Assembly (NCBI GenBank): GCA_016926475.1
Contig: JAFGON010000049.1
Coordinates: 1 to 18,007 of the forward strand
Reading direction: 5' to 3'
Origin: a candidate division WOR-3 bacterium
GTDB taxonomy: Bacteria; SDB-A
DNA length: 18,007 bases
The notes under the pieces were generated by a model, which was not told where the DNA came from, ran no database searches, and saw only the letters and a list, made by a program, of their open reading frames with translations. Both the position numbers and the translations under genes were made by a program. Below, one piece after another: positions 1-18,007 of the stretch. Position 1 is the stretch's first letter; every line of letters starts with the position of its first letter.

Positions 1-64
1 GAATCCCGACAATCCCCTAAATGCCAGAGACCCTTGTGGACAAATGAATCTCTTCAATTTATAA
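1..64 (+). CDS. Possible 3' end of an upstream gene (partial)
   Basis: One forward frame, entered at base 2, stays open from the window edge to a TAA at 62-64. Its 20 codons read like an ordinary polar C-terminus (NPDNPLNARDP...MNLFNL). Another forward frame is also open a little further (to a TAG near 90), so the choice rests only on amino-acid plausibility. Twenty codons cannot be assigned to any family, and chance is a real alternative. Confidence 0.25.
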   Translation, partial: NPDNPLNARDPCGQMNLFNL

Positions 65-167
65 TGATTTTATTAGGACACTAGTGAGTTATTATATCAT
101 TTAATCATAAAACACAAAAGAGTGAATGGGAATAAATTCGAAAGCTGAGATCAAGCTGATACAAGTG

Positions 168-197
168 TTGAAAAAAGGCCATGTTTTATTGTATATC
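168..197 (+). promoter_or_regulatory. Candidate sigma70-like promoter for the barrel gene
   Basis: TTGAAA (168-173) and TATATC (192-197) are separated by 18 bases and lie about 50 bases before the ATG at 249. The match is moderate and the region is AT-rich, so other boxes are possible. The rest of 65-248 shows nothing else I can name. The gene has a clear ribosome site, AAAGGAG at 237-243, five bases before its ATG. Confidence 0.35.
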
Positions 198-248
198 ATA
201 AATATGTTTCCGGATATTTTGTAAATCATTTTTGCTAAAGGAGACCGG

Positions 249-2327
249 ATGATTTTTAACCTTGTGTGTTTTATTCTTTCCGGCTTAATCGGAACACAGA
301 TAGACCAGACAATTCCCCTTTACAATGAGGTTATCACTCTTAACCAGACAAAACCGTCATGGGGGGAGGTCATGAGTGATTCTGTGGGCGTCAATATAAG
401 CTATGATAATCAGAATCTGTATATATCGCTCGACGCATATCAGGACACTTCGACAATCGTAGGTTTTAACTCGACAAGGGACAACGGATCGGATCAGGAT
501 TTCTGCGGTTTTATCATAGACCCCCTCGGGACTTCACAGGAAGGTTACATGTTTCTGTTCGGCGCAGGCGGAAATTTCTTGGACGCGAGGATATTGAAAA
601 GCACCGGAGGAACAGAGGAGTATTCCTGGGATTCAGACGTCTCCTACACCGCCCAAAGAACTGATTACGGATATAGAGTTGACGCGATCGTGCCTTTTTC
701 AAACTTCAGGAGGTCAGGAGGACAAGAGCAGAAATGGGTGATAAACATAATTAGAAAAAAACAATCCACAAACGAGACTGGATTGTATGGACTCACCGAA
801 TCAAGACAAGCTAACTTTCTTTTCAGATACGGAATTGAGACAGTAATCCGGGGTATAGGAGGCAGGGAACCTATTCATGTCATACCATACGGCATCTGGG
901 GAGGCGAGATAGACGATGGAGTGGAGAGTGAGAAGGGAGACGCCGGTTTCGACGCGAGATTTCCGTTCGGTGCAAGTTCTGTAGTAAATCTGGCTTTCAA
1001 CCCGGACTTCAGCCAGCTCGAAGGCGACCCCCTTGAGTTCGATTTCAACGCGCGATATGTCCTTTACTACTCTGAATACAGACCCTTTTTTCTCGAAGAG
1101 AGAGGTGTTTTCCGGTCCCTAAGAGAAATATTTTACTCGCGAAGGATATACAATCCTTTCTTAGCGGCGAGATACACTTATAAAACGGAAGTCAACCAGT
1201 TCGGATTTATCCTCGCTTCAGACGAAAACGACACGGCTATAGGCAACCCGGACGCTTATGCGGGATTGTTGCGATATAAGAGGTCTTTCGGCGTCAACTA
1301 TTTAGGCGCGATGATTTTAGGCAGGCAGAACAGGGAGACGGAAGACTTAAATTATATCTTGATGACCGACGGCGACCTGAATTTTTTCGACGAAATGATT
1401 GGCGCTAACTACACCTGCGCCATGTCCAGAACAGAAAAAGAAGAAGAGGACACGACAGGTTATTATTATGATACCGAAACAAGTTATAAAAGGGGTAATT
1501 TCAAGCTGAGTATATACAATTCTGGTATAACAAGGCACTACGACAATAAGCTGGGATACATCACGGAGAAAGACTATCAGTCCCTGAATGTATATTTTGA
1601 CTATAGATTAAATCTCAACAGACCTGTAATTAAAAGAATCGTTTTCGGTTTCTATCCCGGGGCATCCGGATCTTGGGATGATTTCTGGGGAAACCTCTTC
1701 GACAATTACGATTCGATTGAATATTCTCACGCCGAATATTTGGAAATAGATCTTTTTACCAGTTTTGTCGCATATTTATATGCACATCAGGAGAAAACAG
1801 AATACAACGGAGATTATTACTGTTATCAGGGCGTTGAATTGGGAATGAACCAGGATATCACACCGAACATGCATGTCTATGCCGGAGGCTACACAGGTTA
1901 CGGAATAGACTACAACTACGGCAGGCTGTGCAAAAAATACAGTTATTGGGGAGGATTGTCAGGGAATATTTTTGAAAAAATATCATACAATTTTTATATT
2001 CAGGCACAACAGTTTTACGGCGACACTTCGGGGTATGCCTTAAAACCTTCTGAAATCAAAAACGCTGACTGGCAGTGGAATTCATACAAACCTGTTATTC
2101 AACTCACTTATACGCCCGACAACAGGTATTCTTTTACATTCACTTACCAGAAACTCTGGGCTGATTTCGCCCCCTATTACTGGGCTCCTGAAAACTACGA
2201 TTTGGACGAGGACAAATTCTTCGCTCTTCTCACTTTCAAACCATCCACGGGAGACGCCGTCTATTTCGGAGTTAGATTCCCGGAAAAACTCGTATTCTTC
2301 AAATTCACCCATAGGTTCGAGTTTTAA
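249..2327 (+). CDS. DUF5916-like outer-membrane beta-barrel protein with N-terminal CBM9/DOMON-like domain
   Basis: A 692-residue exported protein. The start is supported by AAAGGAG five bases upstream. A short hydrophobic N-terminus (about residues 1-16) can serve as a signal peptide. Residues about 40-190 follow the CBM9/DOMON-like pattern seen in DUF5916 proteins: a strand with NLYISLDAYQD, an RDNGSDQDF segment, IDPLGTSQEGYMF and the G-NFLDARI strand. From about 200 to the end, alternating aromatic/polar strands with Tyr-rich turns, the EYRPFFLEERGVF motif and a C-terminal aromatic residue (FKFTHRFEF) indicate an outer-membrane beta-barrel. Such proteins occur in Bacteroidetes-like and related candidate phyla; substrate and role are unknown. 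The usual IDG-x-W opening of the N-terminal domain is weak, so the domain may be slightly shortened. It stands alone, followed by a 600-bp repeat region. Confidence 0.75.
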   Translation: MIFNLVCFILSGLIGTQIDQTIPLYNEVITLNQTKPSWGEVMSDSVGVNISYDNQNLYISLDAYQDTSTIVGFNSTRDNGSDQDFCGFIIDPLGTSQEGYMFLFGAGGNFLDARILKSTGGTEEYSWDSDVSYTAQRTDYGYRVDAIVPFSNFRRSGGQEQKWVINIIRKKQSTNETGLYGLTESRQANFLFRYGIETVIRGIGGREPIHVIPYGIWGGEIDDGVESEKGDAGFDARFPFGASSVVNLAFNPDFSQLEGDPLEFDFNARYVLYYSEYRPFFLEERGVFRSLREIFYSRRIYNPFLAARYTYKTEVNQFGFILASDENDTAIGNPDAYAGLLRYKRSFGVNYLGAMILGRQNRETEDLNYILMTDGDLNFFDEMIGANYTCAMSRTEKEEEDTTGYYYDTETSYKRGNFKLSIYNSGITRHYDNKLGYITEKDYQSLNVYFDYRLNLNRPVIKRIVFGFYPGASGSWDDFWGNLFDNYDSIEYSHAEYLEIDLFTSFVAYLYAHQEKTEYNGDYYCYQGVELGMNQDITPNMHVYAGGYTGYGIDYNYGRLCKKYSYWGGLSGNIFEKISYNFYIQAQQFYGDTSGYALKPSEIKNADWQWNSYKPVIQLTYTPDNRYSFTFTYQKLWADFAPYYWAPENYDLDEDKFFALLTFKPSTGDAVYFGVRFPEKLVFFKFTHRFEF

Positions 2328-2342
2328 GAGAAAAAGAGATAT

Positions 2343-2517
2343 CCACCACGAAGGCCGCGAATAATCGCGGCTTCACGAAGGTGAAGAAAGAAATATAAAG
2401 AACTTTTCTTTAATAAAATTTGTATCTCAAATTTTATACTTCGTGCAGGGCAAATCATCGATTTGCGCCTTCGTGTAGGAGAAAATTATGTATGTAATTT
2501 TCGGCGCTTCGTGGTAG
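2343..2517. repeat. Composite intergenic repeat A: hairpins separated by CACGAAG/CTTCGTG heptamers
   Basis: Five exact heptamers are visible: CACGAAG at 2347-2353 and 2374-2380, and its reverse complement CTTCGTG at 2439-2445, 2469-2475 and 2507-2513. Each gap holds a hairpin of different sequence. The first is a 7-bp stem at 2354-2371 (arm GCCGCGA). The second is a 9-bp stem at 2413-2437 (arm ATAAAATTT). The third is a 7-bp stem at 2450-2466 (arm GCAAATC). The fourth is an 8-bp stem at 2481-2502 (arm GAAAATTA). The outer ends form an imperfect terminal inverted repeat, CCACGAAG against CTTCGTGG. No open reading frame uses the region. It may be a non-autonomous mobile repeat, a structured 3' element or ncRNA; the sequence alone does not decide. 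Confidence 0.7.
2376..2431 (+). repeat. 56-bp direct repeat, copy 1
   Basis: Begins CGAAGGTGAAGAAAG and ends TTTGTATCTCAAA. A second copy 383 bases downstream (2759-2814) differs at only two positions that I can see. It starts inside a CACGAAG heptamer and ends in the right part of a hairpin, so the duplicated segment belongs to the repeat mosaic and is not a gene fragment. Confidence 0.8.
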
Positions 2518-2625
2518 AAATTTTCTTCTATCTTTAGTTAATTCAAAAAACAAGAATAAAGACATCCACCACAAAGTATATATCAAAGAAAATTCTCTTT
2601 TTTCATCATAGATGAGAATATCGTT

Positions 2626-2647
2626 ACGCGAATGGACACTAACGAAG
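2626..2647 (+). repeat. Short decamer-type repeat (ACGCGAATGG-ACACTAACGAAG)
   Basis: Two degenerate units spaced about ten bases. They are related to the three-unit decamer array at 6746-6772, which shares CGCGAATG and CGAAG. Just upstream, near 2569, a degenerate copy of the repeat edge (CATCCACCACAAAG) can be read. This suggests an older, eroded element between composite repeats A and B. Confidence 0.45.
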
Positions 2648-2664
2648 AATAAAAGAAAAGATTT

Positions 2665-2764
2665 CCACCACGAAGGTCGAGATAAATTTCGACACTGTTA
2701 ATTCACTAAAAGTGAATTAACATATCACGAAGGATGGATTGTAAACAATCCATCTTCCCGAAGG
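2665..2764. repeat. Composite intergenic repeat B: same design, different hairpins
   Basis: Opens with CCACCACGAAGG like repeat A. Heptamers lie at 2669-2675, 2726-2732 and, in the variant form CCCGAAG, at 2757-2763. Between them are a 5-bp GTCGA/TCGAC stem (2676-2693), a perfect 12-bp stem with an AAA loop at 2696-2722 (arm TGTTAATTCACT) and a 10-bp stem with an AA loop at 2733-2754 (arm GATGGATTGT). The hairpins differ from those of repeat A while the joints are conserved. Confidence 0.7.
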
Positions 2765-2814
2765 TGAAGAAAGAAATATAAAGAGCTTTTCTTTTATAAA
2801 ATTTGTATCTCAAA
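2759..2814 (+). repeat. 56-bp direct repeat, copy 2
   Basis: Second copy of the segment at 2376-2431, with two substitutions. After it, the sequence departs from repeat A: the CTTCGTG joint expected next is replaced by ATTCGAG, so copy B is incomplete on its right side. Confidence 0.8.
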
Positions 2815-2901
2815 ATTATATTCGAGCGGACCTCTTAAAATAGACGCAATGGAGAGAATTCAATGTTAATGCAAAAAATGTAATTATTTGTCATTAATTG
2901 C

Positions 2902-2930
2902 TTGCAAAAAGTGTCATATTATGACATTAT
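2902..2930 (+). promoter_or_regulatory. Candidate promoter with internal 15-bp palindromic operator
   Basis: TGTCATA-T-TATGACA at 2912-2926 is a perfect inverted repeat with 7-bp arms. It lies ten bases before the ATG of the AAA ATPase gene. A further half-site, TGTCATTA, lies at 2889-2896, 23 bases upstream of the first arm. TTGCAA (2902-2907) and CATTAT (2925-2930) are 17 bases apart and could be weak -35/-10 boxes. In that case the palindrome fills the spacer, a classic repressor position, and transcription would start at about the ATG. The palindrome is directly visible; the promoter assignment is inference. Confidence 0.5.
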
Positions 2931-2936
2931 TTAAGT

Positions 2937-4271
2937 ATGAAAAGAAATATTTACAGGAATTTGCTGTCTTGGAAGGAAAAAAAGAACAGAAAACCTCTTA
3001 TAATAAAAGGGGCGAGACAAACAGGTAAAACTTATACTGTTCAAGAATTCGGAAAAAATGAATTTTCCAAGCTTCATTACATAAACTTTGAAAAAGACAG
3101 AAAAGCTTCTCAAATATTTGTAAAAGATCTCAATCCAGACAGAATACTTAACGAAATGAGATTTTTTCTGTCTCAGGACATTGATTCGCAAAACGATCTG
3201 ATTTTTTTTGATGAAATTCAGGAAGAACCACGCGCTTTGACTTCTTTAAAATATTTTAGCGAGGAAAAACCGGGCATCAATATTATATCGGCAGGTTCTC
3301 TCATAGGTCTTCATCTGACAGAAGAATCAAGTTTCCCCGTGGGTAAAGTGGAATTTTTAAACATGTACCCTATGAACTTTGAGGAGTTTTTGGAAGGGTC
3401 AGGAGAAAATTTATTGTACTCTTTTTTGAAAGAATATGACGGTAAAATTAATATTCCAGAAATTATTCACGAGAAATTTGTCACTGAACTGAAAAAATAT
3501 TTTGTTGTCGGCGGAATGCCTGAGGCCATAAAGATATTTACTGAATACAAAAATGACACTTTCAAAGCTTTCAACAATGTCCGTGAATATCAGGAAAATC
3601 TTCTTTATTCAATTAACGCAGATATGGCAAAACATTCCGGCAAGCAGAATTCCATGCAGATAGAGAGAGTTTTCAGAAGTATACCGGAACAATTGTCAAG
3701 GATCAGAGACGGTTCTTCCGGCAGGTATATTTTTAAAAACGTGATACCGGGTGTAAACAGATATTCAAGAATGATTGGTGTTATTGATTGGTTGGTGACT
3801 GCAGACCTTGTTTTAAAAACTCATATAATTGATCATGCCTCTGTTCCTTTGACTGGAAATATTAAAGAAAATATGATGAAACTATACTTTTACGATATTG
3901 GTCTTCTCGGTTCCATAAGCGGTTTATCTCCAAAAAGTATTATTGATTACGACTACGGAAGATATAAAGGTTATTTTGCCGAAAGCTTTGCGGCGAGAGA
4001 ACTCGTGACAGATTATAACGTCAAATTGTTTTCATGGTTTAAAAATAGAGCTGAAATAGATTTTCTTGTCGAAAAAAATGGAAAAGTAATACCAATTGAA
4101 ATAAAAGCCGGTGAAAAGATTAAGACAAAAAGCCTTAATTTTTTTAACAAAATTTGCAAAAGTGAAAAATCTTATGTTCTCAGCATGAGGAGTTTTCATG
4201 AGGACAATATTGGCGGTACAGCGAATTACCCGCTTTATATGATTTCGAGGATTTTGGAGCTCAAGAAATAA
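2937..4271 (+). CDS. AAA+ ATPase of the AAA_14/DUF4143 family with C-terminal nuclease-like domain
   Basis: A 444-residue protein with Walker A GARQTGKT (residues 25-32), Walker B LIFFDEIQ (Asp92-Glu93) and the family's SAGSLIGL segment (about 118-125), followed by the YPMNFEEFL motif. The C-terminal DUF4143 half ends in a PD-(D/E)XK-like pattern: Glu373-x-Asp375, then Glu388-x-Lys390 in IPIEIKAG. This two-part layout is common in bacteria and archaea, often as a scattered, transfer-prone single gene; no precise biochemical role is established. There is no clear Shine-Dalgarno before the ATG, and the predicted transcription start is close to it, so the mRNA may be leaderless. The gene appears more AT-rich than the metabolic genes further on and sits beside a repeat cluster. 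That would fit lateral acquisition but does not prove it. It converges on the propeller gene across 114 bases with no evident terminator. Confidence 0.85.
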   Translation: MKRNIYRNLLSWKEKKNRKPLIIKGARQTGKTYTVQEFGKNEFSKLHYINFEKDRKASQIFVKDLNPDRILNEMRFFLSQDIDSQNDLIFFDEIQEEPRALTSLKYFSEEKPGINIISAGSLIGLHLTEESSFPVGKVEFLNMYPMNFEEFLEGSGENLLYSFLKEYDGKINIPEIIHEKFVTELKKYFVVGGMPEAIKIFTEYKNDTFKAFNNVREYQENLLYSINADMAKHSGKQNSMQIERVFRSIPEQLSRIRDGSSGRYIFKNVIPGVNRYSRMIGVIDWLVTADLVLKTHIIDHASVPLTGNIKENMMKLYFYDIGLLGSISGLSPKSIIDYDYGRYKGYFAESFAARELVTDYNVKLFSWFKNRAEIDFLVEKNGKVIPIEIKAGEKIKTKSLNFFNKICKSEKSYVLSMRSFHEDNIGGTANYPLYMISRILELKK

Positions 4272-4385
4272 TCCTTCTATTGTTTAAATGAATAAATACT
4301 GATTTTACCTTTTTATATACACCCAGCATGGTTTAAAATATTTGTTCAAAAAAACGATTTATTCAATTCATTATGGGTTTTTTAA

Positions 4386-5804
4386 TCACCTCATAACTGA
4401 AAATTCGAGTGTTTTAGAATAATCTCCGGATTGAACTCGACAGAAGTATGAGCCGTTTTGGACTAGGTTCCCCTGGAAATCTTTGCCATTCCAAGTGAAT
4501 CTGTAATTTCCTGTGGTCAGGTTTTCGTCGAGGATTATCGCTACTTTTTGACCCAACACGTTGAACACTTCGACACAGACCCGGCAGTCAGTTTTTACAT
4601 CGAAAGATATCGTTGTTGTATTGGACATGGGATTTGGAATAAGAGACGTCAATATAATGGGATAGATTAAACCTTCCTCGATTTCCTCGACTCCGAGGTT
4701 GGGAACCCATTTTGCGACTCTGTCAGCCAGAGGGTTGCCTCCTGCATCCGTGAACTCTCCTCCTGCGTAAATGTCGTTTCCCGAGGAATACAAAGATAAG
4801 CAAATATTGTTCATTCCAGTGCCCAGCGATTCCCAAGATGTTCCGTTCCATACTGCAATCCGGTCAGCGTTAGGATCACCGCCGGCGTCAGTGAAATATC
4901 CGGCAACGTATATTTTGGATCCTGAAATGAGAATCGAACTGACGATGTTGTTCAATCCCGGTCCTAAAGCTTGCCAAGACGAGCCATTCCACACTGCGAT
5001 ATAGTCGGCGTTCGGATCGCCACCAGCGTCAGTGAATTCACCGCCTGCATAAATGATGTTTCCTGAACGGGCAATAGCCCAGACAATACCGTTAAGACCT
5101 GATCCAAACGATCCCCATGTTGAACCATTCCACACCGTTATACGGTCCGCGTCGGGATTGCCGCCTGCGTTAAAAAAAGAACCTCCTACATAGACTAAAG
5201 TGTCATAAAGATATATAGTTGCAACCCATCCTTCCAATGCTATAGTGCCCAGAGGTTCCCAAGTGTTGACATTCCATCTTGCTATATTATCTGCGGCCGG
5301 ATATCCACCTGCGTTTCCAAAAGCTCCGCCAACATATACAAATTGCCCCGAAACTTTGATATCGTTGGCCCATCCGTCTAATCCTGCACCGAGTGGTTCC
5401 CATGTTGTGCCGTTCCATTGTGCAATGCTCATTGTATTGGGAACTCCTCCGACACTTGAAAAATCACCACCGACGTATAATAAACTGTCGCCGGCTGCTA
5501 CAGCCTTGACTTCGTAATCTGCTCCAGTTCCGAGAGCTTCCCAAGATGTGCCGTTCCATTTTGCTATACGGTCGGCATTGCTTACATTGCCTGCATCTAG
5601 AAAATTTCCTACGACATAAACCTCTGAATCCCAAACAATTACGTCATAGACTCTTCCGTTCCAGATGCCTTCTCCAAGGTTTGTCCACGTTCCTGTTTCG
5701 TAGGGCAAAAACCTGTGGTCTTCGTTTGAAATGAAATTTGAGGCTGAAATACCGGAGATAACAATACATGTCAGAAGAAAACAAAACAAGTTCTTCAATT
5801 TCAT
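4386..5804 (-). CDS. Secreted seven-repeat beta-propeller protein with C-terminal FlgD/T9SS-like Ig module
   Basis: A 472-residue exported protein. The start has AAGGAG (5811-5816) six bases upstream, and residues 1-22 form a typical signal peptide. Residues about 38-365 are seven consecutive repeats of 45-48 residues, each with the frame WNGTSWEALG...IYAGGEFTDAGG...ADRIAV. Boundaries fall at about 83, 130, 177, 225, 272, 319 and 366. Seven repeats of this size suggest a closed seven-bladed propeller, with the first and last repeats supplying parts of one blade; that is inference from the count. After a linker, residues about 385-472 match the FlgD-like Ig/sorting module: PNPMSNTTTISF, VEVFNVLGQKV, then a GNYRFTWNGKD loop. 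This module is used as a surface-anchoring or secretion tail in Bacteroidetes-like and candidate-phylum bacteria. It lies 50 bases downstream of another exported-protein gene and is probably co-transcribed. The ligand is unknown. Confidence 0.8.
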   Translation of the reverse strand: MKLKNLFCFLLTCIVISGISASNFISNEDHRFLPYETGTWTNLGEGIWNGRVYDVIVWDSEVYVVGNFLDAGNVSNADRIAKWNGTSWEALGTGADYEVKAVAAGDSLLYVGGDFSSVGGVPNTMSIAQWNGTTWEPLGAGLDGWANDIKVSGQFVYVGGAFGNAGGYPAADNIARWNVNTWEPLGTIALEGWVATIYLYDTLVYVGGSFFNAGGNPDADRITVWNGSTWGSFGSGLNGIVWAIARSGNIIYAGGEFTDAGGDPNADYIAVWNGSSWQALGPGLNNIVSSILISGSKIYVAGYFTDAGGDPNADRIAVWNGTSWESLGTGMNNICLSLYSSGNDIYAGGEFTDAGGNPLADRVAKWVPNLGVEEIEEGLIYPIILTSLIPNPMSNTTTISFDVKTDCRVCVEVFNVLGQKVAIILDENLTTGNYRFTWNGKDFQGNLVQNGSYFCRVQSGDYSKTLEFSVMR

Positions 5805-5854
5805 AATCGACTCCTTGTTGATGGTTAAGAAATTTTACTAAAAATCATTTCATT

Positions 5855-6352
5855 TTACTCTTGTCCTGCAGAATCCTCTTCAGGTGAAAAATTTTGTAAA
5901 ATCATTTTGCCCAATGTGTCGTAAACACTTAGTATTTCAATGTTTAGTTCAGCAAAGGCGTCGTCTATATCAGGATTGTCCCAGTCCCAGTTGTAGACAT
6001 AATTGATCTCGAAATATAAAGTATCCCAAGGTTTTAACCACTCCTGGGGGGTATATCCGAATTCGTCGTCCACCCAAGGGATTTCCTCGTAATAAGATTT
6101 AAGTTCGGCGCGGAAAACTATGTTTGAAATTGTGTAGTGTGTGTTGTTGAAGAGCCATATAGCGACCACGGGTTCGCGCCCGTGGCCTTTCTCAAGAAAA
6201 AAAAATGTCTTGTCGAGGATTTCGATTTCTTCGTATTGTTCAGTACGGGATGAGTCCGGATTCAGAGGTTTATCACCGGATGTATCGTATGAAGTGTTTG
6301 ATAAACTTGATAGATTCAGAAAAAACAAAGGAAAAATTATAAAAAATTTCAT
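5855..6352 (-). CDS. Exported protein of unknown function
   Basis: 165 residues. The N-terminal hydrophobic stretch MKFFIIFPLFFLNLSSLS is a likely signal peptide; there is no lipobox Cys, so a soluble periplasmic or secreted product is expected. The mature part is acidic and aromatic, with alternating strands (AIWLFNNTHYTISNIVFRAEL, later LKPWDTLYFEINYVYNWDW). These resemble Ig-like FxLYD-type domains in which a neutral-state strand is followed by a Pro-Gly/Pro-Trp turn. I do not recognise a named family. A GGCGGAG element just before the ATG can act as ribosome site. As first gene of a two-gene unit with the propeller protein, it may share its envelope role. Bases 6166-6185 inside the gene form a 7-bp GC-rich stem (arm CCACGGG) that stands out in AT-rich surroundings. 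Confidence 0.6.
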   Translation of the reverse strand: MKFFIIFPLFFLNLSSLSNTSYDTSGDKPLNPDSSRTEQYEEIEILDKTFFFLEKGHGREPVVAIWLFNNTHYTISNIVFRAELKSYYEEIPWVDDEFGYTPQEWLKPWDTLYFEINYVYNWDWDNPDIDDAFAELNIEILSVYDTLGKMILQNFSPEEDSAGQE

Positions 6353-6362
6353 CGCTCCGCCT

Positions 6363-6414
6363 TTCCAATTGGGACATGTTTATAATATAATGATTATGAC
6401 TCTAAAGTCATCAA
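6363..6414. promoter_or_regulatory. Divergent promoter region with 16-bp palindrome
   Basis: For the plus-strand gene, TTCCAA (6363-6368) and a perfect TATAAT (6386-6391) are 17 bases apart. ATGACT-CTAA-AGTCAT at 6396-6411 is a perfect inverted repeat placed at the predicted transcription start, where a repressor would block. In the other direction TTGATG (6414 to 6409) with an AT-rich -10 near 6390-6384 could serve the exported-protein gene, so both promoters would share the site. The palindrome is seen; its role is inferred. It could instead form a small hairpin at the mRNA 5' end. Confidence 0.45.
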
Positions 6415-6445
6415 TTTATAAAAAAATAAAAAAAAGGAAAAAATC

Positions 6446-6658
6446 ATGTCAAAGTGGGAATACGCGGAGATCTGGTATCAGCAGAAAATCACTGTAAAAG
6501 TTTTCAGTTCGAAGGGGCACACGCACCAGGAATATGAGGAGGTCCAATGGCCTGATATACTCTCTCGAATGGGAGAAGAAGGATGGGAAATGGTCAGCGT
6601 TATTGGCTCACCCAACGGTATGCAGTACTGGTATTACTTCAAAAGGCCGGTTGTTTAA
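6446..6658 (+). CDS. Small DUF4177-like protein
   Basis: 70 residues. It has the short opening strand WEYAEIWY, a central helix DILSRMGEEGWEMVSVIG and a closing strand MQYWYYFKRP. This is the layout of the DUF4177 family: a WEY start, an LGxxGWELV core and an FKR end. These small alpha/beta proteins are widespread, and their function is not established. A purine-rich AAAGGAAA just before the ATG can serve as ribosome site. The gene stands alone, divergent from the exported-protein pair and followed by repeats. Its size equals the normal size of the domain, so it is complete. Confidence 0.7.
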   Translation: MSKWEYAEIWYQQKITVKVFSSKGHTHQEYEEVQWPDILSRMGEEGWEMVSVIGSPNGMQYWYYFKRPVV

Positions 6659-6675
6659 CAAAAAAAAAGAAAACC

Positions 6676-6717
6676 CACCGTGAACGGTGTTATAAATTTC
6701 ACTTACACTAAGTGTAA
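6676..6717. repeat. Two small hairpins downstream of the DUF4177-like gene
   Basis: CACCGT-GA-ACGGTG (6676-6689) and TTACAC-TAA-GTGTAA (6703-6717) are perfect inverted repeats within 60 bases of the stop codon. The opening ACCCACCG recalls the CCACCACG edge of the repeats at 2343 and 2665. The second hairpin shares its ACTA-A-AGTG core with the 12-bp stem at 2696-2722. Neither is followed by a T-run, so a simple intrinsic terminator is not supported. Confidence 0.5.
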
Positions 6718-6745
6718 ATAGAAGAAAAAAGAAGAAGTTATTAGC

Positions 6746-6772
6746 CACGAATTGACGCGAATGAACGCGAAG
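6746..6772 (+). repeat. Tandem decamer repeat CACGAATTGA/CGCGAATGAA/CGCGAAG
   Basis: Three units with a 10-base period, related to the pair at 2626-2647. Short tandem CACGAAT/CACGAAG units of this kind are a recurring intergenic feature in many environmental bacterial genomes, from general knowledge of such repeats. No open reading frame covers it. Confidence 0.55.
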
Positions 6773-6796
6773 TAAATAAAGAGACATCCAGCGGTT

Positions 6797-6817
6797 CTGT
6801 TACCTCACTATAAGTGA
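6797..6817. repeat. Degenerate relative of the 12-bp-stem hairpin
   Basis: CTGTTA at 6797-6802 is followed by TCACT-ATA-AGTGA at 6805-6817. This aligns well with CTGTTAAT-TCACT-AAA-AGTGA at 2695-2715 in repeat B. Upstream, AGACATCCA (6783-6790 region) echoes the repeat edge near 2569. It looks like an eroded copy of the same element about 4 kb away. Confidence 0.45.
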
Positions 6818-6890
6818 TTAGTATTTAACGAATAAAATTGAAATTATAGCTGCTTGAAAATGATGTTTTACGCTAAAGAATATTTTGGTA

Positions 6891-6922
6891 TTACAACATT
6901 TAGAAAAAAGATATATTATAAT
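6891..6922 (+). promoter_or_regulatory. Candidate promoter of the toxin-antitoxin cassette
   Basis: A perfect TATAAT lies at 6917-6922, 27 bases before the ATG at 6950. The overlapping TATTAT (6914-6919) stands 17 bases after TTACAA (6891-6896). The -35 match is weak. GGGGGA at 6941-6946 is the ribosome site. No clear palindromic operator is visible, although TA operons are usually autoregulated. Confidence 0.4.
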
Positions 6923-6949
6923 TACTCTTAGAATCAAATAGGGGGAAAT

Positions 6950-7282
6950 ATGAATAATGAAAAAATGTTGAAATTTTTTTATAAGACAAATACAGCCTAT
7001 AAAAGTCATTACATTAACGGTGTTATAGGCGGTTTAACGCCGAAGGGTGATCTGAAATTAGATTTTTTCTCAGAAAATTTCCCTGTTCCGAATAGTGTTG
7101 TCCATGAATTACTTGAAAATAATAATTTAGGAAAAGAAATCCAAAGAGAACTCAGCGAAGGAATAATTAGAGAAATAGAATGCGGGCTGGTGATGAATTT
7201 GGAAACTGCAAAAAGCATAAATCAGTGGTTGACTGAAAAAATAAAAGAAATCGAAAAATTTTATAAAAAGAGCCAAAAATGA
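6950..7282 (+). CDS. Conserved hypothetical protein, first gene of a toxin-antitoxin cassette
   Basis: 110 residues. The N-terminal part has strands around SHYINGVIGGLTPKGDLKLDF; the C-terminal part reads GIIREIECGLVMNLETAKSINQWLTEKIKEIE. The second part resembles the VMSPETAK...L...I pattern of DUF3467-like proteins, with a closing helix. I recognise the general look of this family (IxGxxGGxTPxGxLxLDF...REIExGxVMxLExAK), but not a function. No DNA-binding motif is evident. The stop codon overlaps the next start in an ATGA, so translation is probably coupled to the antitoxin gene. Whether it is part of the antitoxin complex, a third component or a passenger cannot be told here. GGGGGA precedes the ATG closely. 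Confidence 0.6.
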   Translation: MNNEKMLKFFYKTNTAYKSHYINGVIGGLTPKGDLKLDFFSENFPVPNSVVHELLENNNLGKEIQRELSEGIIREIECGLVMNLETAKSINQWLTEKIKEIEKFYKKSQK

Positions 7283-7560
7283 ACAACTATTCCAACGCGT
7301 CAATACATTCTTCAAAACAGGCATATAATTGGTGGTATAAAATACCGGAAAGTATAAAAAATACAGCTTCTGCTCTGAATAATTATGCTCAAACAGCGGA
7401 AAAACTATCTGAAAGTCACGAAAAGCAATACTTTTGCAAAGTATCTCCAATAGTGGAAAAATTGGAATTTTCAGAGTATGACTCTATTATCGTCTGTGAA
7501 ACGGCTTTAATAAAGGATTGGTTGCTTCCCCAGGAGGATATTGCTTGGAAGGATTTGTAA
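7279..7560 (+). CDS. Probable antitoxin of a PemK/MazF-type toxin
   Basis: 93 residues beginning in an ATGA overlap with the preceding gene. There is no recognisable ribbon-helix-helix or AbrB DNA-binding motif. The call rests on position directly before a PemK/MazF toxin and on the C-terminal peptide DWLLPQEDIAWKDL. Acidic tails of the form DWLxPEExAWxxL are seen in small proteins encoded next to PemK toxins, where the tail may act as toxin-binding segment (family knowledge plus inference). The N-terminal region is helical and Ser/Asn-rich. The last 16 bases overlap the toxin reading frame, and the toxin's Shine-Dalgarno lies inside this gene. There is no strong ribosome site of its own, so translation likely depends on the upstream gene. 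Confidence 0.6.
   Translation: MNNYSNASIHSSKQAYNWWYKIPESIKNTASALNNYAQTAEKLSESHEKQYFCKVSPIVEKLEFSEYDSIIVCETALIKDWLLPQEDIAWKDL
7532..7537 (+). promoter_or_regulatory. Shine-Dalgarno that sets the toxin start
   Basis: AGGAGG, seven bases before the TTG at 7545 and inside the antitoxin coding sequence. It favours TTG 7545 over the earlier in-frame TTG at 7518, which has no comparable site and would add nine residues before the family's normal N-terminus. Confidence 0.65.
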
Positions 7561-7883
7561 GGGGAGAAGTAGTAGTCATTCCTTTTCCGTTCTCTGATTT
7601 GACAAACAGTAAAAAAAGACCCGCTCTAATAGTATCAAGGCTTAAAGGCGATGATGTTATTCTTTGTCAAATTACGAGCAAAACCATTAAAGACGATTAT
7701 GCTATAGAAATTCTTGATTCAGATTTTAATAAAGGATCTCTCAATCAGCCAAGCAATATAAGACCCAACAAGTTATTCACGGCTGACAAAAAAATCATTA
7801 GAAGGTCTGTTGGAAATTTGAATGACAAAAAGTTTGATAAAGTAATAGAAAAAATTGTTCAGATCATAGAAAATAAAATTTAA
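7545..7883 (+). CDS. PemK/MazF-family mRNA interferase toxin
   Basis: 112 residues from the TTG at 7545; a longer version from TTG 7518 would have 121. It shows the PemK/MazF signature: RGEVVVIPFPFSDL (residues 6-19), KKRPALIVS with Arg25, then ILCQITSK with Thr44-Ser45. These correspond to the RNA-cleaving Arg and Thr/Ser region of the family. MazF-type toxins are ribosome-independent endoribonucleases that fold as SH3-like barrels and are inhibited by the partner's C-terminal tail. The family usually has 105-120 residues, so this one is complete. The start overlaps the antitoxin end by 16 bases, linking toxin synthesis to antitoxin translation. A rare TTG start may keep toxin output below antitoxin output. 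It converges on gpmA across 73 bases. Confidence 0.88.
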   Translation: MEGFVRGEVVVIPFPFSDLTNSKKRPALIVSRLKGDDVILCQITSKTIKDDYAIEILDSDFNKGSLNQPSNIRPNKLFTADKKIIRRSVGNLNDKKFDKVIEKIVQIIENKI

Positions 7884-7956
7884 TAAACTGTAGCCTGAGG
7901 TAAAATTCACAAAAAATATACATCATTGTAGCGCGGTGAAAACTAATAAACTTTTT

Positions 7957-8700
7957 TTACGCTTTACCCTGATTCTTCACGGCCTGTTCTGCTGAGGAGA
8001 GTTCCTCGTCAGATGCGAGGTAGTAATGCTTTACGGGCTTTAAAGCGTCGTCGAGTTCGTAGATCAGCGGTATACCTGTCGGTATATTCAGGGATACAAT
8101 CTTGTCCTCAGGAATGTCGTCTAGAAATTTAACCAGCGCTCTCAAGCTATTTCCGTGAGCGGCGATAATCACTTTTTTGCCGGATTTGACAGTCGGTGCG
8201 ATACTTTCGTGCCACAAGGGCAGAAACCTCGCGACAGTGTCTTTCAGGCACTCGGTCAGGGGCAGGTCTTTTTCGGACAGGTTTTTGTAGCGGGGGTCGT
8301 TGCCCGGATAGCGGAGGTCGGCCTTGGTAAGCTCAGGGGGCCTGATGTCATAACTTCTTCTCCATATATGAACCTGTTGCTCTCCGAATTTCTGCGCCAT
8401 TTCAGATTTGTTCAAGCCCTGTAGGGCACCGTAGTGGCGTTCGTTGAGCCTCCAGTTCCTTTCGACCGGTATCCACATAAGGTCCATTTCATCGAGAGCT
8501 ATCCAGAGAGTCCTTATGGCTCTTTTCAAAACAGAAGCGAACGCTATATCGAAAACAAAGCCTTTTTCCTTTAGTTTTTTGCCGGCTGAGTGAGCCTCTA
8601 CGACGCCTTTTTCGGAAAGATCTACATCGGTCCATCCTGTGAAGCGGTTCTCCTTGTTCCATACACTCTCACCGTGTCTTAAAAGTGTCAATTCATACAT
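7957..8700 (-). CDS. gpmA: 2,3-bisphosphoglycerate-dependent phosphoglycerate mutase
   Basis: 247 residues, the normal size of cofactor-dependent dPGM. It interconverts 3- and 2-phosphoglycerate in glycolysis and gluconeogenesis in the cytoplasm through a phosphohistidine. Visible residues: LRHGES with the phosphorylated His9, TGW at 21-23, Lys59-Arg60, NERHYG with the acid/base Glu87, RRSYDIRPP at 114-122, and AAHGNS with His182. The ATG has a strong AAGGAG (8706-8711) six bases upstream. The first 13 bases overlap the 3' end of the preceding phosphatase gene, so this is the last gene of a four-gene overlapping operon. Confidence 0.95.
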
Positions 8701-9326
8701 GATGTCTCCTTTTGGATCAAGTGAAGATGAGAATCTTCGCCGAGGCTTGTAACTTTGAAATTTCCGTTTTCAACGGAGATTACTGTTATGGACGTGTTGT
8801 CTATTTTATCTGTGTTCCAGACCTCCGAAAGAGGTTTTTTTTCTGCAAGAGCACAGGCGGTTCTTATAAGAACTCCGTGTGAAAAAGCCAGAATACTTTT
8901 ATCTTTATGTTCTTTGGAGACATAATTTAAAAACTTCTCCGCCCTTTTTTGAACTTCTTCAAAAGTCTCGCCTCCTGTTATTGCAAAAATATGGGGACGG
9001 AGGTTGAAATCGTCATATTCTTTCGGAGTTTCCCTCTGTATGTCTTCGATGAGTTTACCTTCCCAGATTCCGAGATTTATTTCTTTTAACAGGTCCGATC
9101 TGATTATTGGCTGGCATCTTTTTTTTGTGATTACTTCAGCGGTTTTCAGGGCTCTTTTGAGAGGGCTTGAATAGATAAAATCAAATTTGGAGTTTTTGAG
9201 CCGTCTTTCGAGAGATTGCGCCTGTAACAATCCGAGTTCGGTGATATCTGATTCGCCCTGTCCCTGGAGCCTTTTTTGACAGTTCGAAGTGCTTTGGCCA
9301 TGCCTGACGAAAGAGATTTTCGTCAT
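8688..9326 (-). CDS. Histidine phosphatase superfamily protein (CobC/GpmB-like)
   Basis: 212 residues. The RHG motif FVRHGQS contains the catalytic His9; Arg58 lies in [11 protein letters not shown], Glu82 in [12 protein letters not shown] and His150 in FSHG. These form the phosphate pocket of the branch with phosphatase-type members (alpha-ribazole phosphatase, GpmB-like proteins, fructose-bisphosphatase-like). The substrate cannot be read from the sequence, and no cobalamin genes are nearby to support CobC. Its start overlaps the deacetylase stop (ATGA), and its end overlaps gpmA by 13 bases. It is therefore a superfamily paralogue sitting directly beside true gpmA, of which it is a distant relative only. 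Its ribosome site is weak, suggesting translational coupling to the deacetylase. Confidence 0.85.
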
Positions 9327-10135
9327 TTACCCGTCTCTCCCGAATAGCGCGAATACTTTCTGTAGACCGTGTCTTCGAGAGCTTCTTCCAGGGATATAAA
9401 TGTCCAGCCATTTTCCTTGAAATGATCGAGAATTTCACCGAGGGTGAAAGAGTTAAGATAATTCATGTGCAGAAGCATTATAAGAGGCACGTCTCTTTTG
9501 TATTTTTTTGTGTAAAAACTGTCGTTGTATACGATTCTCTCGCTTATGTGGGAGAGATAATCCCGCTTGACGGATTCGAGAAAAACCGTGTCACCGGACG
9601 GAAATGAGTCGACGAATGTTTTGTTGAACTTCCAGTCGTCATTGTCTATCGTTACCGGAGCGACTTCGTAGCCGCGGCTTCTGAGCGCCGCGAGGACGGA
9701 ATCCCTTTTTTCAGGTGTGTCTCCCATGCTGAGACAGGGATACCTGAAGTACTTGGGTCTTTCACCGAAAAGAGAAGTCAGCACAGAGTCGCAAACAATG
9801 AAATCCGAAATGTATTCTTCCGCCGAAACGTCGTCGAGGTCATGATGGGTATGAGTGTGGTTTGCTACTGTGTGGCCTCTTCGGACGAATTCGTTCATGA
9901 GGTCGAGGGCGAAAGAGTTTATCGTCGATGTCACTGTAAAACCGGTCACCTTGACGCCTCTGGAATCGAGAGTGTCGAGAATTCTCAGGAAATAGTCCTG
10001 TTTCTGTTCTCGGCTGAGGCCTCTTGTGTATGTGAAAGGCAGGTCGTCTATTGTGATGGCGACTCTTTTTTGAGCCGAAGCGATTTCCGCGAGCGATAAG
10101 GCGGTGAAAATAAAAGCAAAAACAGTAGCTTTCAT
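9323..10135 (-). CDS. Exported polysaccharide deacetylase (NodB/CE4 family)
   Basis: 270 residues with a signal peptide at 1-21 ending in ASA. CE4 motifs are in order: AITIDDLP with Asp30-Asp31; HTHTH with metal-binding His93 and His97; RYPC with Arg131; IDNDDW at 163-168; and LLHMN with His223. CE4 enzymes remove N- or O-acetyl groups from chitin-like sugars, peptidoglycan or other polysaccharides with a divalent metal in the periplasm or outside. The substrate is unknown here. The ATG has TAGGAGA upstream and overlaps the aminotransferase stop by four bases. The neighbours are cytoplasmic metabolic enzymes, so the functional link in this operon is not obvious. Confidence 0.88.
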   Translation of the reverse strand: MKATVFAFIFTALSLAEIASAQKRVAITIDDLPFTYTRGLSREQKQDYFLRILDTLDSRGVKVTGFTVTSTINSFALDLMNEFVRRGHTVANHTHTHHDLDDVSAEEYISDFIVCDSVLTSLFGERPKYFRYPCLSMGDTPEKRDSVLAALRSRGYEVAPVTIDNDDWKFNKTFVDSFPSGDTVFLESVKRDYLSHISERIVYNDSFYTKKYKRDVPLIMLLHMNYLNSFTLGEILDHFKENGWTFISLEEALEDTVYRKYSRYSGETGK

Positions 10136-11325
10136 AAGAATTCTCCTATCACTTCAGACAGAATTTTTATCCCTCTGTCAATCTGCTCGATCGAAGGAAA
10201 AGAATAATTCAGTCTCAGAGTGTTCTTTCCGGACGCGTCGCAGTGGAAAGGCTGGCCGGTTACGAAGGCGACATTTTTTTCTATAGCTTTATAGAATACA
10301 TCTTTGGCGTCAATGTTTTCCGGCAGTATGACCCACAGGAACATTCCGCCTTCAGGTTTTGACCACTCGACCTGCCGGGGCATGTTTTCTTCGAGAGCTC
10401 CGAGCATGGTCGAAATTTTTGGTTTGTAAAGGTCGATGGCTTTTTGTATGGTTTCTTCCATTTTTCCTTTCGAGATGAATTCAGACAATATGAGCTGAGT
10501 GAAAGACGGAGTGCAGAGGTCGACGGACTGTTTGAGCATTATTATTTTTTCTATGATTTCTTTTTCTGCCGTAATCCAGCCCATTCTCATGCCGGGAAAA
10601 AGCATTTTTGAAAATGTCTTCAGAAGGATTACTCCGCTGCCTCCTGAAATTGTCCAAAGACTCGGTAATATGTTTCCGGTAAAACTGAGCTCTCTGTAGG
10701 GAGAATCTTCGATTATCAGTATTTCTCTTTTCCGGGCAAATTTGACGAGTTCATTTCTCCTTTCAAGTGTCATCGTAATCCCTGAAGGATTTTGGAAATC
10801 CGGAATCGTGTATATAAATGAAGGCGGAGTGCCCTTCTTTTCGAGTTCGTCAACTTCTTTTTCGAGGGCGTAAATTTCCATTCCGCCGAAGTCCATTTTT
10901 ACGCCTATCATTCTGGCCATGTCGCGTCTGAAAGCCTGGATGGCTCCAAGATAAGAAGGCAGTTCCATTATGACGGGAGTGCCTTCGTCAATGAAAAGCC
11001 TCGAAACGAGGTCGAGACCCTGCTGTGACGATGAAGTGACGCATATCTGTTCCTCGGTAGCCTTTTCGCCGAAATCGGCCATGAACTTTACGAGGGAAGT
11101 CTGCATTTCAACTTCACCCGGTGTCGGTCCGTACTGGAGAGCCAGATAGCCTTTTGAGTGAAGAACTTTTTCAGTTATCTCGGTTATCTCTTTCGTCGGG
11201 AAAAGCTTCGAGTCGGGAAGACCGCCTCCGAAAGAAATTATGCCCGGCTTTCTGGTCAAGCTGAGAAGCTCCCTGATTTCCGATCTTTTTATGCTCGTAG
11301 AAATTTTTGAGAATCTGTGGTTCAT
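10132..11325 (-). CDS. PLP-dependent aminotransferase, class I/II (2-aminoadipate/aromatic/MocR-like type)
   Basis: 397 residues from the ATG at 11325, which has AAAGGAG six bases upstream. The frame stays open upstream to 11469, but that would overrun the divergent helicase gene and its promoter and add residues with no family match, so the shorter start is preferred. Fold-type I features (short-form numbering): GGGLPD near the N-terminus, YGPTPGEVEM, PDFQNPSG with Asn179, EDSPYREL with Asp207 and Tyr210, PLP Lys240 in TFSKMLFPGMRMGW, and substrate-binding Arg371 in RLNYS. This pattern fits the subgroup of LysN-like 2-aminoadipate aminotransferases, broad aromatic/branched-chain aminotransferases and MocR C-terminal domains, without the GntR DNA-binding part. 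The exact substrate is uncertain. It is the first gene of the four-gene operon. Confidence 0.88.
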   Translation of the reverse strand: MNHRFSKISTSIKRSEIRELLSLTRKPGIISFGGGLPDSKLFPTKEITEITEKVLHSKGYLALQYGPTPGEVEMQTSLVKFMADFGEKATEEQICVTSSSQQGLDLVSRLFIDEGTPVIMELPSYLGAIQAFRRDMARMIGVKMDFGGMEIYALEKEVDELEKKGTPPSFIYTIPDFQNPSGITMTLERRNELVKFARKREILIIEDSPYRELSFTGNILPSLWTISGGSGVILLKTFSKMLFPGMRMGWITAEKEIIEKIIMLKQSVDLCTPSFTQLILSEFISKGKMEETIQKAIDLYKPKISTMLGALEENMPRQVEWSKPEGGMFLWVILPENIDAKDVFYKAIEKNVAFVTGQPFHCDASGKNTLRLNYSFPSIEQIDRGIKILSEVIGEFL

Positions 11326-11349
11326 AGTCGCTCCTTTTTGGAAAAAGAT

Positions 11350-11379
11350 ATTATATTTTAAAATCTCTGCCCCGGACAA
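11350..11379 (-). promoter_or_regulatory. Promoter of the aminotransferase-gpmA operon
   Basis: On the minus strand TTGTCC (11379 to 11374) and a perfect TATAAT (11355 to 11350) are 18 bases apart, 25 bases before the ATG at 11325. No operator-like palindrome is evident. Confidence 0.55.
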
Positions 11380-11386
11380 TTTTTTT

Positions 11387-11416
11387 TTAACAAATATCTC
11401 CGGGTGCTGATAAAAT
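11387..11416 (+). promoter_or_regulatory. Candidate promoter of the helicase gene
   Basis: TTAACA (11387-11392) and TAAAAT (11411-11416) are 18 bases apart, each one base from consensus, and lie 25 bases before the TTG start at 11441. It is arranged back to back with the operon promoter on the other strand. Confidence 0.45.
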
Positions 11417-11440
11417 CCAGAAAACAGAAATGGGGTAAAA

Positions 11441-13768
11441 TTGGACGTATCGGTAGGTGAATTAGTCAAATTCGTGTATTTCGATCAGGATCTCGAATCC
11501 GGATTCAGAAGTCTGAAAAAAGCCGTCAGGGGCGTAGTTCTTCACAGGGAATACCAGGAGTCGAAATCCGCAAAAGCCGATTACTCGGCCGAGGTATTTC
11601 TCACGTACGATTTCGAGTTTAAGGGAAGGGAATTCACTCTGAAAGGAAAAGCCGACGGTATATTTCGTGACTCAGGAATCGCCACTGTGGAAGAGATAAA
11701 AACGGGTAGCGTTCAAGGAAGGGAAGAGAGCGCCCTCGAGATGCACCTTGCACAGGCAAAGTGCTACGCGTTCATGTACTCGCGGATAAATAATGAAGAC
11801 TCCGTAAAAGTTTTAGTGACTTATCTGGACGAAACAGGTCCGAAATCCGAAAAAAGCCTCGTATTTACAAAAGAAGAACTCGAGAGAGATTTTTTTGCCC
11901 TGTTTGACAAATATTACAGATGGATTGAATTTGAGGAGAACAGAAGAATACAGAGAAACGCCACGCTTAAAAAAGCGAGTTTTCCACACTCAAAATACAG
12001 AAAAGGACAGGACGAGCTCTCTGCGAGCGTTTTCGAAGCGATAGAATCTTCAAAGACTCTGTTTTTTAGGGCACCGACCGGAATCGGTAAAACAGTGGCG
12101 ACAATTTTTCCCGCGATGAAGGCTATTGGAGACAATCTTGTCGAAAAGGCTTTTTATCTCACGGCAAAAAATACCACGAGGGAAGTCGTTGAAAAAACTC
12201 TGGAGCTGTTTCTGGAAAAAGGCGTCGCTTTGAAATCAGTTTCAATAACTGCTAAAAGCAGGATATGCTTCATGAATCTCGAAGTCTGCGACACGAGCCA
12301 CTGCCCTTATGCCAAAGGATATTACGGACGAGTCAACGGAGCCATCATAGAAGCTCTGGAAAACGACAACCTTTTGACGAGAAACGAGATCGAAAAATAC
12401 GCCGAAAAGCACAGTGTTTGCCCTTTCGAGTTTTCGCTCGATGTTTCAAATTACTGCGATTTCATCGTCTGCGATTACAATTACCTTTTCGATCCGGCCG
12501 TTTTTCTGAGAAGGTATTTTACACAGGATTCCAATGATTTCGTTTTTCTCGTCGATGAGGCTCACAATTTACCTGACAGAGCACGCGAGATGTTTTCGGC
12601 TCAGTTAAAACTTTCGGATTTCTCCAACAAAAAATATTTGGCTGACGATGATATTCTCGAAGGATGCACAGAAGCCGTCGAGGAATTTTTCAGGGACCTC
12701 GCGTCGAAACTGCCCGAAGAGGGATTTTGGGTGCAGAAAGAACCGGTGGAGGAAATTATTGAACTTCTCGCGGCTTTCTCCACGGCGTGCGGATTATGGC
12801 TCGAGGAAAATTACGGAAAAAAACATTACGAGGAATTGCTTAAGCTGTATTTCGATGTCCAGTCTTATTTGAAGACTTTTGAATATTACGGCCCCACTTA
12901 TGTCACTTACACGAAATTCGAAAGAGGAGACGTCCTGCTGAAACAATTTTGTTTGGACCCTTCTGAGAACATAGGGCAGATATTGAAAAAAGGAAGATCG
13001 GGAGTGTTTTTTTCGGCGACTCTCAAACCAATTGAATATTACAGAGACATTCTCGGCGGAAATCATGACTCTGTATTGCTCGAACTTAATTCGCCTTTTC
13101 CAAAAGAAAACCTCGCAATTTGCGTGACTCCATTTGTTTCGACGAAGTACGCTTCGAGAGATTTCAGTCTTATCTGTGTCTGTTCTATAATACACGAACT
13201 GATTTCATCCAAAAAAGGCAATTACATGGCATATTTTCCGTCGTACGTATATCTGGAAAAAGCTCTGGCTTGTTTTGAGGAAAAGTATCCCGACGTAAAA
13301 ATAATAGGGCAAAAAGCTCAGATGACCGAATCGCAGAGAAAAAAATTTTTAAAAAACTTCAAAAAAACAAAAAAAGAAGGAGTCCTCGGATTCGCCGTCA
13401 TGGGAGGCGTATTTTCTGAAGGCATTGATCTTCACGGAGAAAAACTTTCGGGAGCGGTGATCGTTGGAGTGGGTCTCCCCAGGATCTGTTTCGAACTCGA
13501 CATAATAAGGGAGTATTTCGAGTCCAAGCTGGAAGCTGGATTCGAGTTCGCATACATGTATCCTGGTATGAACAAAGTTCTTCAAGCTGCCGGAAGAGTA
13601 ATAAGGACGGAAAAGGACAGAGGGGCGATAATTCTCGTCGACGAAAGATTTTCTCTCTCCAGATATACCGACTTGTTTCCCGAAGAATGGTCGAATTTCA
13701 AAACAGCGTCTTCGACGAATGATGTAAAAACTATACTTGAAGCTTTTTGGGCTAAAGCGACAAAATAA
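11441..13768 (+). CDS. Fused Cas4/RecB-like nuclease and XPD/DinG-type iron-sulfur DNA helicase
   Basis: 775 residues from a TTG at 11441. Upstream in-frame codons offer no better start, an ATG at 11430 runs straight into a stop, and SVGELVKFVY matches the family's N-terminus. Residues 1-165 form a PD-(D/E)XK domain: His35, Asp72 in GKADG, Glu85-x-Lys87 in VEEIKTG and Gln105-x3-Tyr109. The helicase follows: Walker A APTGIGKT (Lys217), four iron-sulfur cysteines C276, C283, C288 and C327, then DEAH at 372-375. Later come GGVFSEGIDL and the arginine-finger motif QAAGRVIRTE. This is superfamily 2 in the XPD/DinG branch, expected to unwind DNA 5'-3'; a nuclease N-terminus suggests a repair role. 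The Cas4-type C-terminal cysteine cluster of the nuclease is absent. The gene stands divergent from the operon and 25 bases before the cyclase gene, possibly co-transcribed with it. Confidence 0.85.
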   Translation: MDVSVGELVKFVYFDQDLESGFRSLKKAVRGVVLHREYQESKSAKADYSAEVFLTYDFEFKGREFTLKGKADGIFRDSGIATVEEIKTGSVQGREESALEMHLAQAKCYAFMYSRINNEDSVKVLVTYLDETGPKSEKSLVFTKEELERDFFALFDKYYRWIEFEENRRIQRNATLKKASFPHSKYRKGQDELSASVFEAIESSKTLFFRAPTGIGKTVATIFPAMKAIGDNLVEKAFYLTAKNTTREVVEKTLELFLEKGVALKSVSITAKSRICFMNLEVCDTSHCPYAKGYYGRVNGAIIEALENDNLLTRNEIEKYAEKHSVCPFEFSLDVSNYCDFIVCDYNYLFDPAVFLRRYFTQDSNDFVFLVDEAHNLPDRAREMFSAQLKLSDFSNKKYLADDDILEGCTEAVEEFFRDLASKLPEEGFWVQKEPVEEIIELLAAFSTACGLWLEENYGKKHYEELLKLYFDVQSYLKTFEYYGPTYVTYTKFERGDVLLKQFCLDPSENIGQILKKGRSGVFFSATLKPIEYYRDILGGNHDSVLLELNSPFPKENLAICVTPFVSTKYASRDFSLICVCSIIHELISSKKGNYMAYFPSYVYLEKALACFEEKYPDVKIIGQKAQMTESQRKKFLKNFKKTKKEGVLGFAVMGGVFSEGIDLHGEKLSGAVIVGVGLPRICFELDIIREYFESKLEAGFEFAYMYPGMNKVLQAAGRVIRTEKDRGAIILVDERFSLSRYTDLFPEEWSNFKTASSTNDVKTILEAFWAKATK

Positions 13769-13793
13769 CAAGAAAATGTGATATTCTTTTATC

Positions 13794-17984: not shown

Positions 17985-18007
17985 AAATCTTTCTGAGGAT
18001 AGCATTC
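17981..18007 (+). CDS. Possible start of a following gene (partial)
   Basis: A GTG at 17981 overlaps the cyclase stop as GTGA and continues open to the edge as M-K-I-F-L-R-I-A-F, which looks like the opening of a signal peptide or membrane segment. The overlap style matches other gene junctions in the window. Nine codons are too few for certainty. Confidence 0.3.

Follow-up and report, generated by a model that had tools for sequence, protein, structure and literature searches.

Hairpin-filled CACGAAG arrays in a candidate division WOR-3 genome are probable gene-less derivatives of a putative mobile element with a GxxExxY gene

Introduction

Arrays of the CACGAAG and CACAGAG type are commonly met between genes in environmental genomes, and GxxExxY genes (TIGR04256, PF13366 PDDEXK_3) constitute a widespread family for which we know of no role. 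The arrays presented here are linked to this family by a gene on another contig (C28) of the same genome, which is a clear family member. Members elsewhere lie between plain, inverted triple-heptamer ends, whereas in the genus studied here hairpins take the place of the spacers between the heptamers.

Several other described systems invite comparison. The copies resemble MITEs in that they are short, gene-less and numerous and share their inverted ends with a gene-carrying copy elsewhere in the genome, but their ends are three-heptamer arrays with side hairpins, no target duplication was found, and no known transposase goes with them. The REP/BIME/REPIN palindromes with their RAYT likewise comprise intergenic palindrome mosaics, gene-bearing and gene-less forms and hairpin ends; the enzyme fold in the present case is, however, PD-(D/E)XK and not HUH. 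A fixed tag, GTAG or CGTC, serves to sort most REPs (PMC3733652), whereas the hairpins described here lack a constant tag of this kind. For the IVP protein of the 23S rRNA intervening sequences (PF05635), a short gene is also bracketed by complementary arrays, but the protein belongs to another family and the array units, seemingly ~7 bp long, have another sequence.

Here, we analyse a stretch of 18,007 nucleotides from a candidate division WOR-3 bacterium (assembly GCA_016926475.1, contig JAFGON010000049.1, positions 1 to 18,007, forward strand), called the window throughout, with a focus on positions 2343-2764.

Results

The region contains seven exact CACGAAG/CTTCGTG heptamers (2347, 2374, 2439(-), 2469(-), 2507(-), 2669 and 2726), a number reached in 0 of 200 shuffles, and an eighth with one mismatch (CCCGAAG at 2757), in agreement with an initial, sequence-only reading that had described eight heptamers punctuating the region. 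The same reading had placed a hairpin in nearly every gap, which is true of most gaps (2354-2373, 2446-2468, 2476-2506 and 2733-2756, with one more hairpin in the core at 2381-2438), but 2514-2668 consists of linker and decayed repeat rather than a hairpin gap, and 2676-2725 holds two hairpins. We distinguish two copies. Copy A (2347-2513) is a complete element, consisting of heptamer, hairpin, heptamer, 58-nt core, opposite-strand heptamer, hairpin, heptamer, hairpin and heptamer; its orientation flips at the core, and its ends are CCACGAAG...CTTCGTGG, as originally noticed. The outer bases on either side of it, GATATCCAC (2338-2346) and GTAGAAATTT (2514-2523), are conserved. Copy B (2669 to ~2822) comprises one end and a decayed core that runs beyond 2764. 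The segment 2336-2525 folds with z=-7.1 relative to shuffles, and no open reading frame of at least 80 aa lies within 2347-2822. The features are as follows.

2338-2346, no strand: outer bases of copy A (one end), GATATCCAC; the last CTTCGTG is followed elsewhere by GTKGATATC (outer sequence common to right ends)
2347-2353, plus: copy A heptamer 1, CACGAAG (exact heptamer search)
2354-2373, plus: hairpin GCCGCGAATAATCGCGGCTT; the same hairpin at C80, near versions in G001 and G002 (array comparison)
2374-2380, plus: copy A heptamer 2 (exact heptamer search)
2381-2438, minus: AT-rich, gene-less core of copy A with hairpin ATAAAATTTG...CAAATTTTAT; a GxxExxY gene fills the equivalent place in C28 (array comparison, fold)
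2439-2445, minus: copy A opposite-end heptamer, CTTCGTG (exact heptamer search)
2446-2468, minus: copy A opposite-end side hairpin (fold p=0.02)
2469-2475, minus: copy A opposite-end heptamer (exact heptamer search)
2476-2506, minus: copy A opposite-end outer side hairpin (fold p=0.01)
2507-2513, minus: copy A opposite end, outermost heptamer (exact heptamer search)
2514-2523, no strand: copy A opposite-end outer bases GTAGAAATTT; elsewhere TTTCTAC before the first CACGAAG (array comparison)
2669-2675, plus: copy B heptamer 1 (exact heptamer search)
2676-2725, plus: copy B two-hairpin gap, hairpins 2676-2693 and 2697-2721 (sequence)
2726-2732, plus: copy B heptamer 2 (exact heptamer search)
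2733-2756, plus: class D hairpin GATGGATTGTAAACAATCCATCTT, identical in G001:C19 (array comparison, fold)
2757-2763, plus: copy B heptamer 3, CCCGAAG, one mismatch (sequence)
2764-2822, minus: copy B core, homologue of 2381-2438; opposite end decayed or lost (sequence matches)

Nearby, a second repeat type with CACGAAT/CGCGAAT units occurs among the CACGAAG arrays (window 2599-2668, L164 and L165) and recurs in G001. An AAA_14/DUF4143 ATPase gene (window 2937-4271) adjoins the arrays. Positions 1-85 of the window, at the contig start, comprise the end of a probable IS repeat, copies of which (95-100% identity) lie next to different flanks at six contig ends of G001.

Three species of the genus were compared: that of the window genome (G000, 2.15 Mb) and the sister species G001 and G002. 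In a genome-wide search of the kind proposed in the sequence-only reading, heptamer pairs of the form CACGAAG-N15-40-CACGAAG occur at 18 places in the window genome, against 0 in the backward control, and at 27 and 18 places in the two sister species; a species of another genus in the same family has 0, and a wide pattern search of 145 genomes gave scattered matches beyond the genus, most of them look-alike sequence within coding regions. Modules bounded by two exact heptamers fold as hairpins in 55 of 64 cases across the three species (p<=0.05 vs dinucleotide shuffles), and the arms are perfect in 45 of 56 distinct hairpins. The hairpins sort into classes, and within classes D and B the arms covary, with 23 and 26 double-change cells (6.6 and 7.8 in shuffles) and an arm pairing of 97% and 92% (35-54% when slid). 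Just one plain tandem array, CACGAAGGACACGAAG at C65, was found in the window genome, and many contigs break inside arrays.

The hairpins are reassorted between arrays: one outer type occurs with differing inner hairpins, and a chimeric hairpin (G001:C61:3549) combines the left arm of one type with the right arm of another. From inspection of the array sequences, we read this as exchange of hairpins at joints and loops. A complete copy in G001 (L157) runs from outer bases through heptamer, hairpin A, heptamer, hairpin B and heptamer to the core, followed by three inverted heptamers with two hairpins and outer bases. In its minimum-energy fold each left heptamer pairs with its right partner, and the four side hairpins stand at two four-way junctions. 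With hairpins at the positions of spacers, left-right heptamer pairing would thus give a ladder of four-way junctions.

In the window genome, the core position of the copy at C28 is occupied by an intact 123-codon GxxExxY gene, flanked on either side by three heptamers and two hairpins. Copy A of the window shares its inverted ends with this copy; simple loss of internal sequence from the gene-bearing copy does not obviously account for the gene-less core. The encoded protein exceeds the curated cut-offs of TIGR04256 and PF13366 (152.7 bits vs 35, E=5e-45, and 149.4 vs 22). Residues D67, E77, K79, Q91 and Y95 do not vary across 28 relatives, and with its D...ExK and QxxxY motifs the protein belongs, by sequence and predicted fold, to the PD-(D/E)XK nuclease superfamily. 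A PDB sequence search revealed no relative. The AlphaFold model (pLDDT 94.9) has its best PDB structure match in Cas4 SSO0001 (Z 9.9); archaeal Hjc, a Holliday-junction resolvase, follows lower at Z 7.0. As unrelated folds often reach Z values below 8, cleavage of junctions is no more than a guess. What the sequence-only reading had taken for hairpins in place of spacers stands, but it had overlooked the inverted ends of a single element, the pairing of left and right heptamers, and the full copy with its GxxExxY gene.

In other phyla the element has a plain form, TTCAC-CRCRRAG-N1-2-CRCRRAG-N1-2-CRCRRAG, followed by a PD-(D/E)XK-fold protein gene of ~125 codons and the same array inverted. GxxExxY genes of 28 distant genomes have inverted matching flanks (median score 20 vs 11 mispaired), while blocks shifted within the same loci yielded no matching flanks. 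We then took 80 named GxxExxY loci, 77 of them with usable flanks, for which the flank score was 22 vs 11 mispaired (p=4e-23). Of the 77 loci, 54 have a three-heptamer array upstream and 56 have one downstream, mostly with 1-2-nt spacers; 42 have arrays on both sides, against 0 in the shifted controls (62-70 loci each). The consensus heptamer is the same left and right at 34 of the 42 both-sided loci (10.1 expected). Exact CACGAAG is sparse near distant GxxExxY genes, the heptamer being locus-specific in sequence and tracking protein relatedness (Mantel r=0.19, p=0.0005). The relatives nearest to the C28 protein (63-72% identity; Planctomycetes, Omnitrophota and others) nearly all have CACGAAG, including 8 of the 8 closest, in plain arrays with short spacers of 1-2 nt. 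In the genus of the window, hairpins of ~20-36 nt occupy the positions of the spacers of ordinary arrays, as had been suspected, with the heptamers kept, and are thus most simply the derived feature.

Among the other GxxExxY loci there is one clear parallel for hairpins between heptamers, an independent case in the unrelated genome G110 (L138, minus strand, 831-865 and 1738-1775): near a GxxExxY gene, CGCGGAG heptamers enclose a hairpin, GGCACCTCTCCAAGGTGC-TAT. Eight GxxExxY matches were found in plasmids and none in phage records. For the 23S_rRNA_IVP genes (L174-L203, 27 with usable flanks), 21 of 27 loci fell in the top 5% relative to mispaired flanks, with inverted short tandem arrays of a seemingly ~7-bp period.

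Filled and empty sites of the plain form can be compared in Bacteroides, where an element lies between radA and a gene for an FAD protein in ~17 of 119 genomes. The heptamers at the filled sites differ (CACAGAG, CACAGAT or CGCAGAT) but are matched left and right. The site is empty in at least six other Bacteroides genomes, stop and start lying 1-15 nt apart, and a remnant array persists in a few genomes; the MAG G251, in which a filled and an empty site are both present, was set aside. The insertion could be one old event that was inherited vertically. Gene-less array pairs occur in B. neonati as well. No target duplication is evident at the plain copies in Bacteroides, and the genus of the window offers no clean empty site. 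Within that genus, one intergenic site differs in content between the three species: G001 has a complete CACGAAG ladder there, G000 has decayed pieces, and in G002 the site is occupied by another hairpin-bearing element. The latter (L292, G002:C119 44700-45300) is a short element of the form ACCGCGAATAC-hairpin-...-GTATTCGCGGT. Both flanks are common to one array site of G000 and one of G001 (C68/C19), and array sequence is present at the htpG site in both G000 and G002. Inheritance therefore also plays a part, and movement is not the sole process.

Discussion

We consider it probable that the arrays in the window derive from a GxxExxY element, which apparently is undescribed so far; a literature search by repeat strings and family name returned no report of arrays bracketing GxxExxY genes. 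With less assurance, we favour the fuller explanation that the parent of copies A and B is a small mobile element in which inverted triple-heptamer ends enclose a GxxExxY gene, that both copies are MITE-like forms of it without the gene, and that the following mechanism applies. The ends would adopt the ladder structure as single-stranded DNA or as an extruded cruciform, the GxxExxY nuclease would cut the heptamer joints or the junctions, or close to them, and the element would spread through repair or joining, with gene-less copies mobilised in trans. Hairpins may be gained and exchanged through recombination at heptamer joints and loops, and the near-perfect palindromes may be upheld by arm-to-arm copying or by selection for DNA structure. 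Movement driven by the nuclease, which we infer, is the more tentative part, to which we give somewhat less than an even chance. More speculatively, GxxExxY genes and inverted arrays may form a mobile element class that spans phyla, in which a lone PD-(D/E)XK nuclease would recognise the paired arrays as cruciforms or four-way junctions, and the genus of the window may have multiplied these junctions with exchangeable hairpin cassettes.

The alternative that survives best, although we think it unlikely, is that the GxxExxY gene is a passenger and that some other system, for instance an IS, template switching during replication or general recombination, moves or copies the arrays. No GxxExxY match was found in the assemblies of G001 and G002 despite their many hairpin arrays. 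The mobiliser may therefore be missing there, may lie in unassembled sequence or may be a different protein. The unrelated 23S_rRNA_IVP gene is bracketed in a similar manner by inverted short arrays, which suggests that such arrays may be a general vehicle, and the probable IS end is common to G000 and G001 at 95-100%. Against this, arrays accompany GxxExxY genes in many phyla and on both sides, and their heptamers track the relatedness of the protein.

Less probable again is that the arrays are structured RNA, whether as a non-coding RNA or as a stem processed by RNase III like the 23S rRNA intervening sequences, and selected for RNA folding. The fold is very strong, the arms covary strongly and the position is intergenic, but the ladder of the complete copy is equally extreme as DNA (z=-13.5, against -13.6 as RNA), copies are scattered over unrelated loci and frequently adjoin each other, and no Rfam family matches the window at its gathering score. 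Paired RNA tolerates G.U, whereas in DNA both G.T and A.C are mismatches. Between left and right heptamers there are 18 G.T and 19 A.C among 840 pairs, and in the hairpin arms 3 G.U and 2 A.C, although these last numbers are small. The lack of a G.U excess favours upkeep and action as DNA over RNA and weakens the structured-RNA option that the sequence-only reading had offered.

Mutation alone, with slippage and template switching at the heptamers building hairpins and arrays in place, would be in keeping with the tandem reiteration of half elements in C28 and with the chimeric hairpin of G001. We regard it as improbable as a sufficient cause, given that class-specific hairpins and termini recur in whole copies at different loci, that G000 and G001 have an exact core in common and that the plain form has both empty and filled sites. 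REP/BIME-type palindromes moved by a RAYT (Y1 HUH) transposase are a very remote prospect. The intergenic mosaics of alternating orientation do resemble BIMEs (PMC2817692, PMC3116915) and GTAG stands at the foot of some hairpins, but the two bases between hairpin and heptamer may be TA, TT, TG or others, and it is the palindromes that vary here while the joints are constant.

On the favoured explanation, a derivation of the window copies from a GxxExxY element, the link between GxxExxY genes and the arrays suggests an identity for both and is testable in cultured Bacteroides. The genus of the window, which has rebuilt the ends with swapped hairpins and kept the left-right pairing, would constitute a natural experiment on whether DNA structure or sequence is read.
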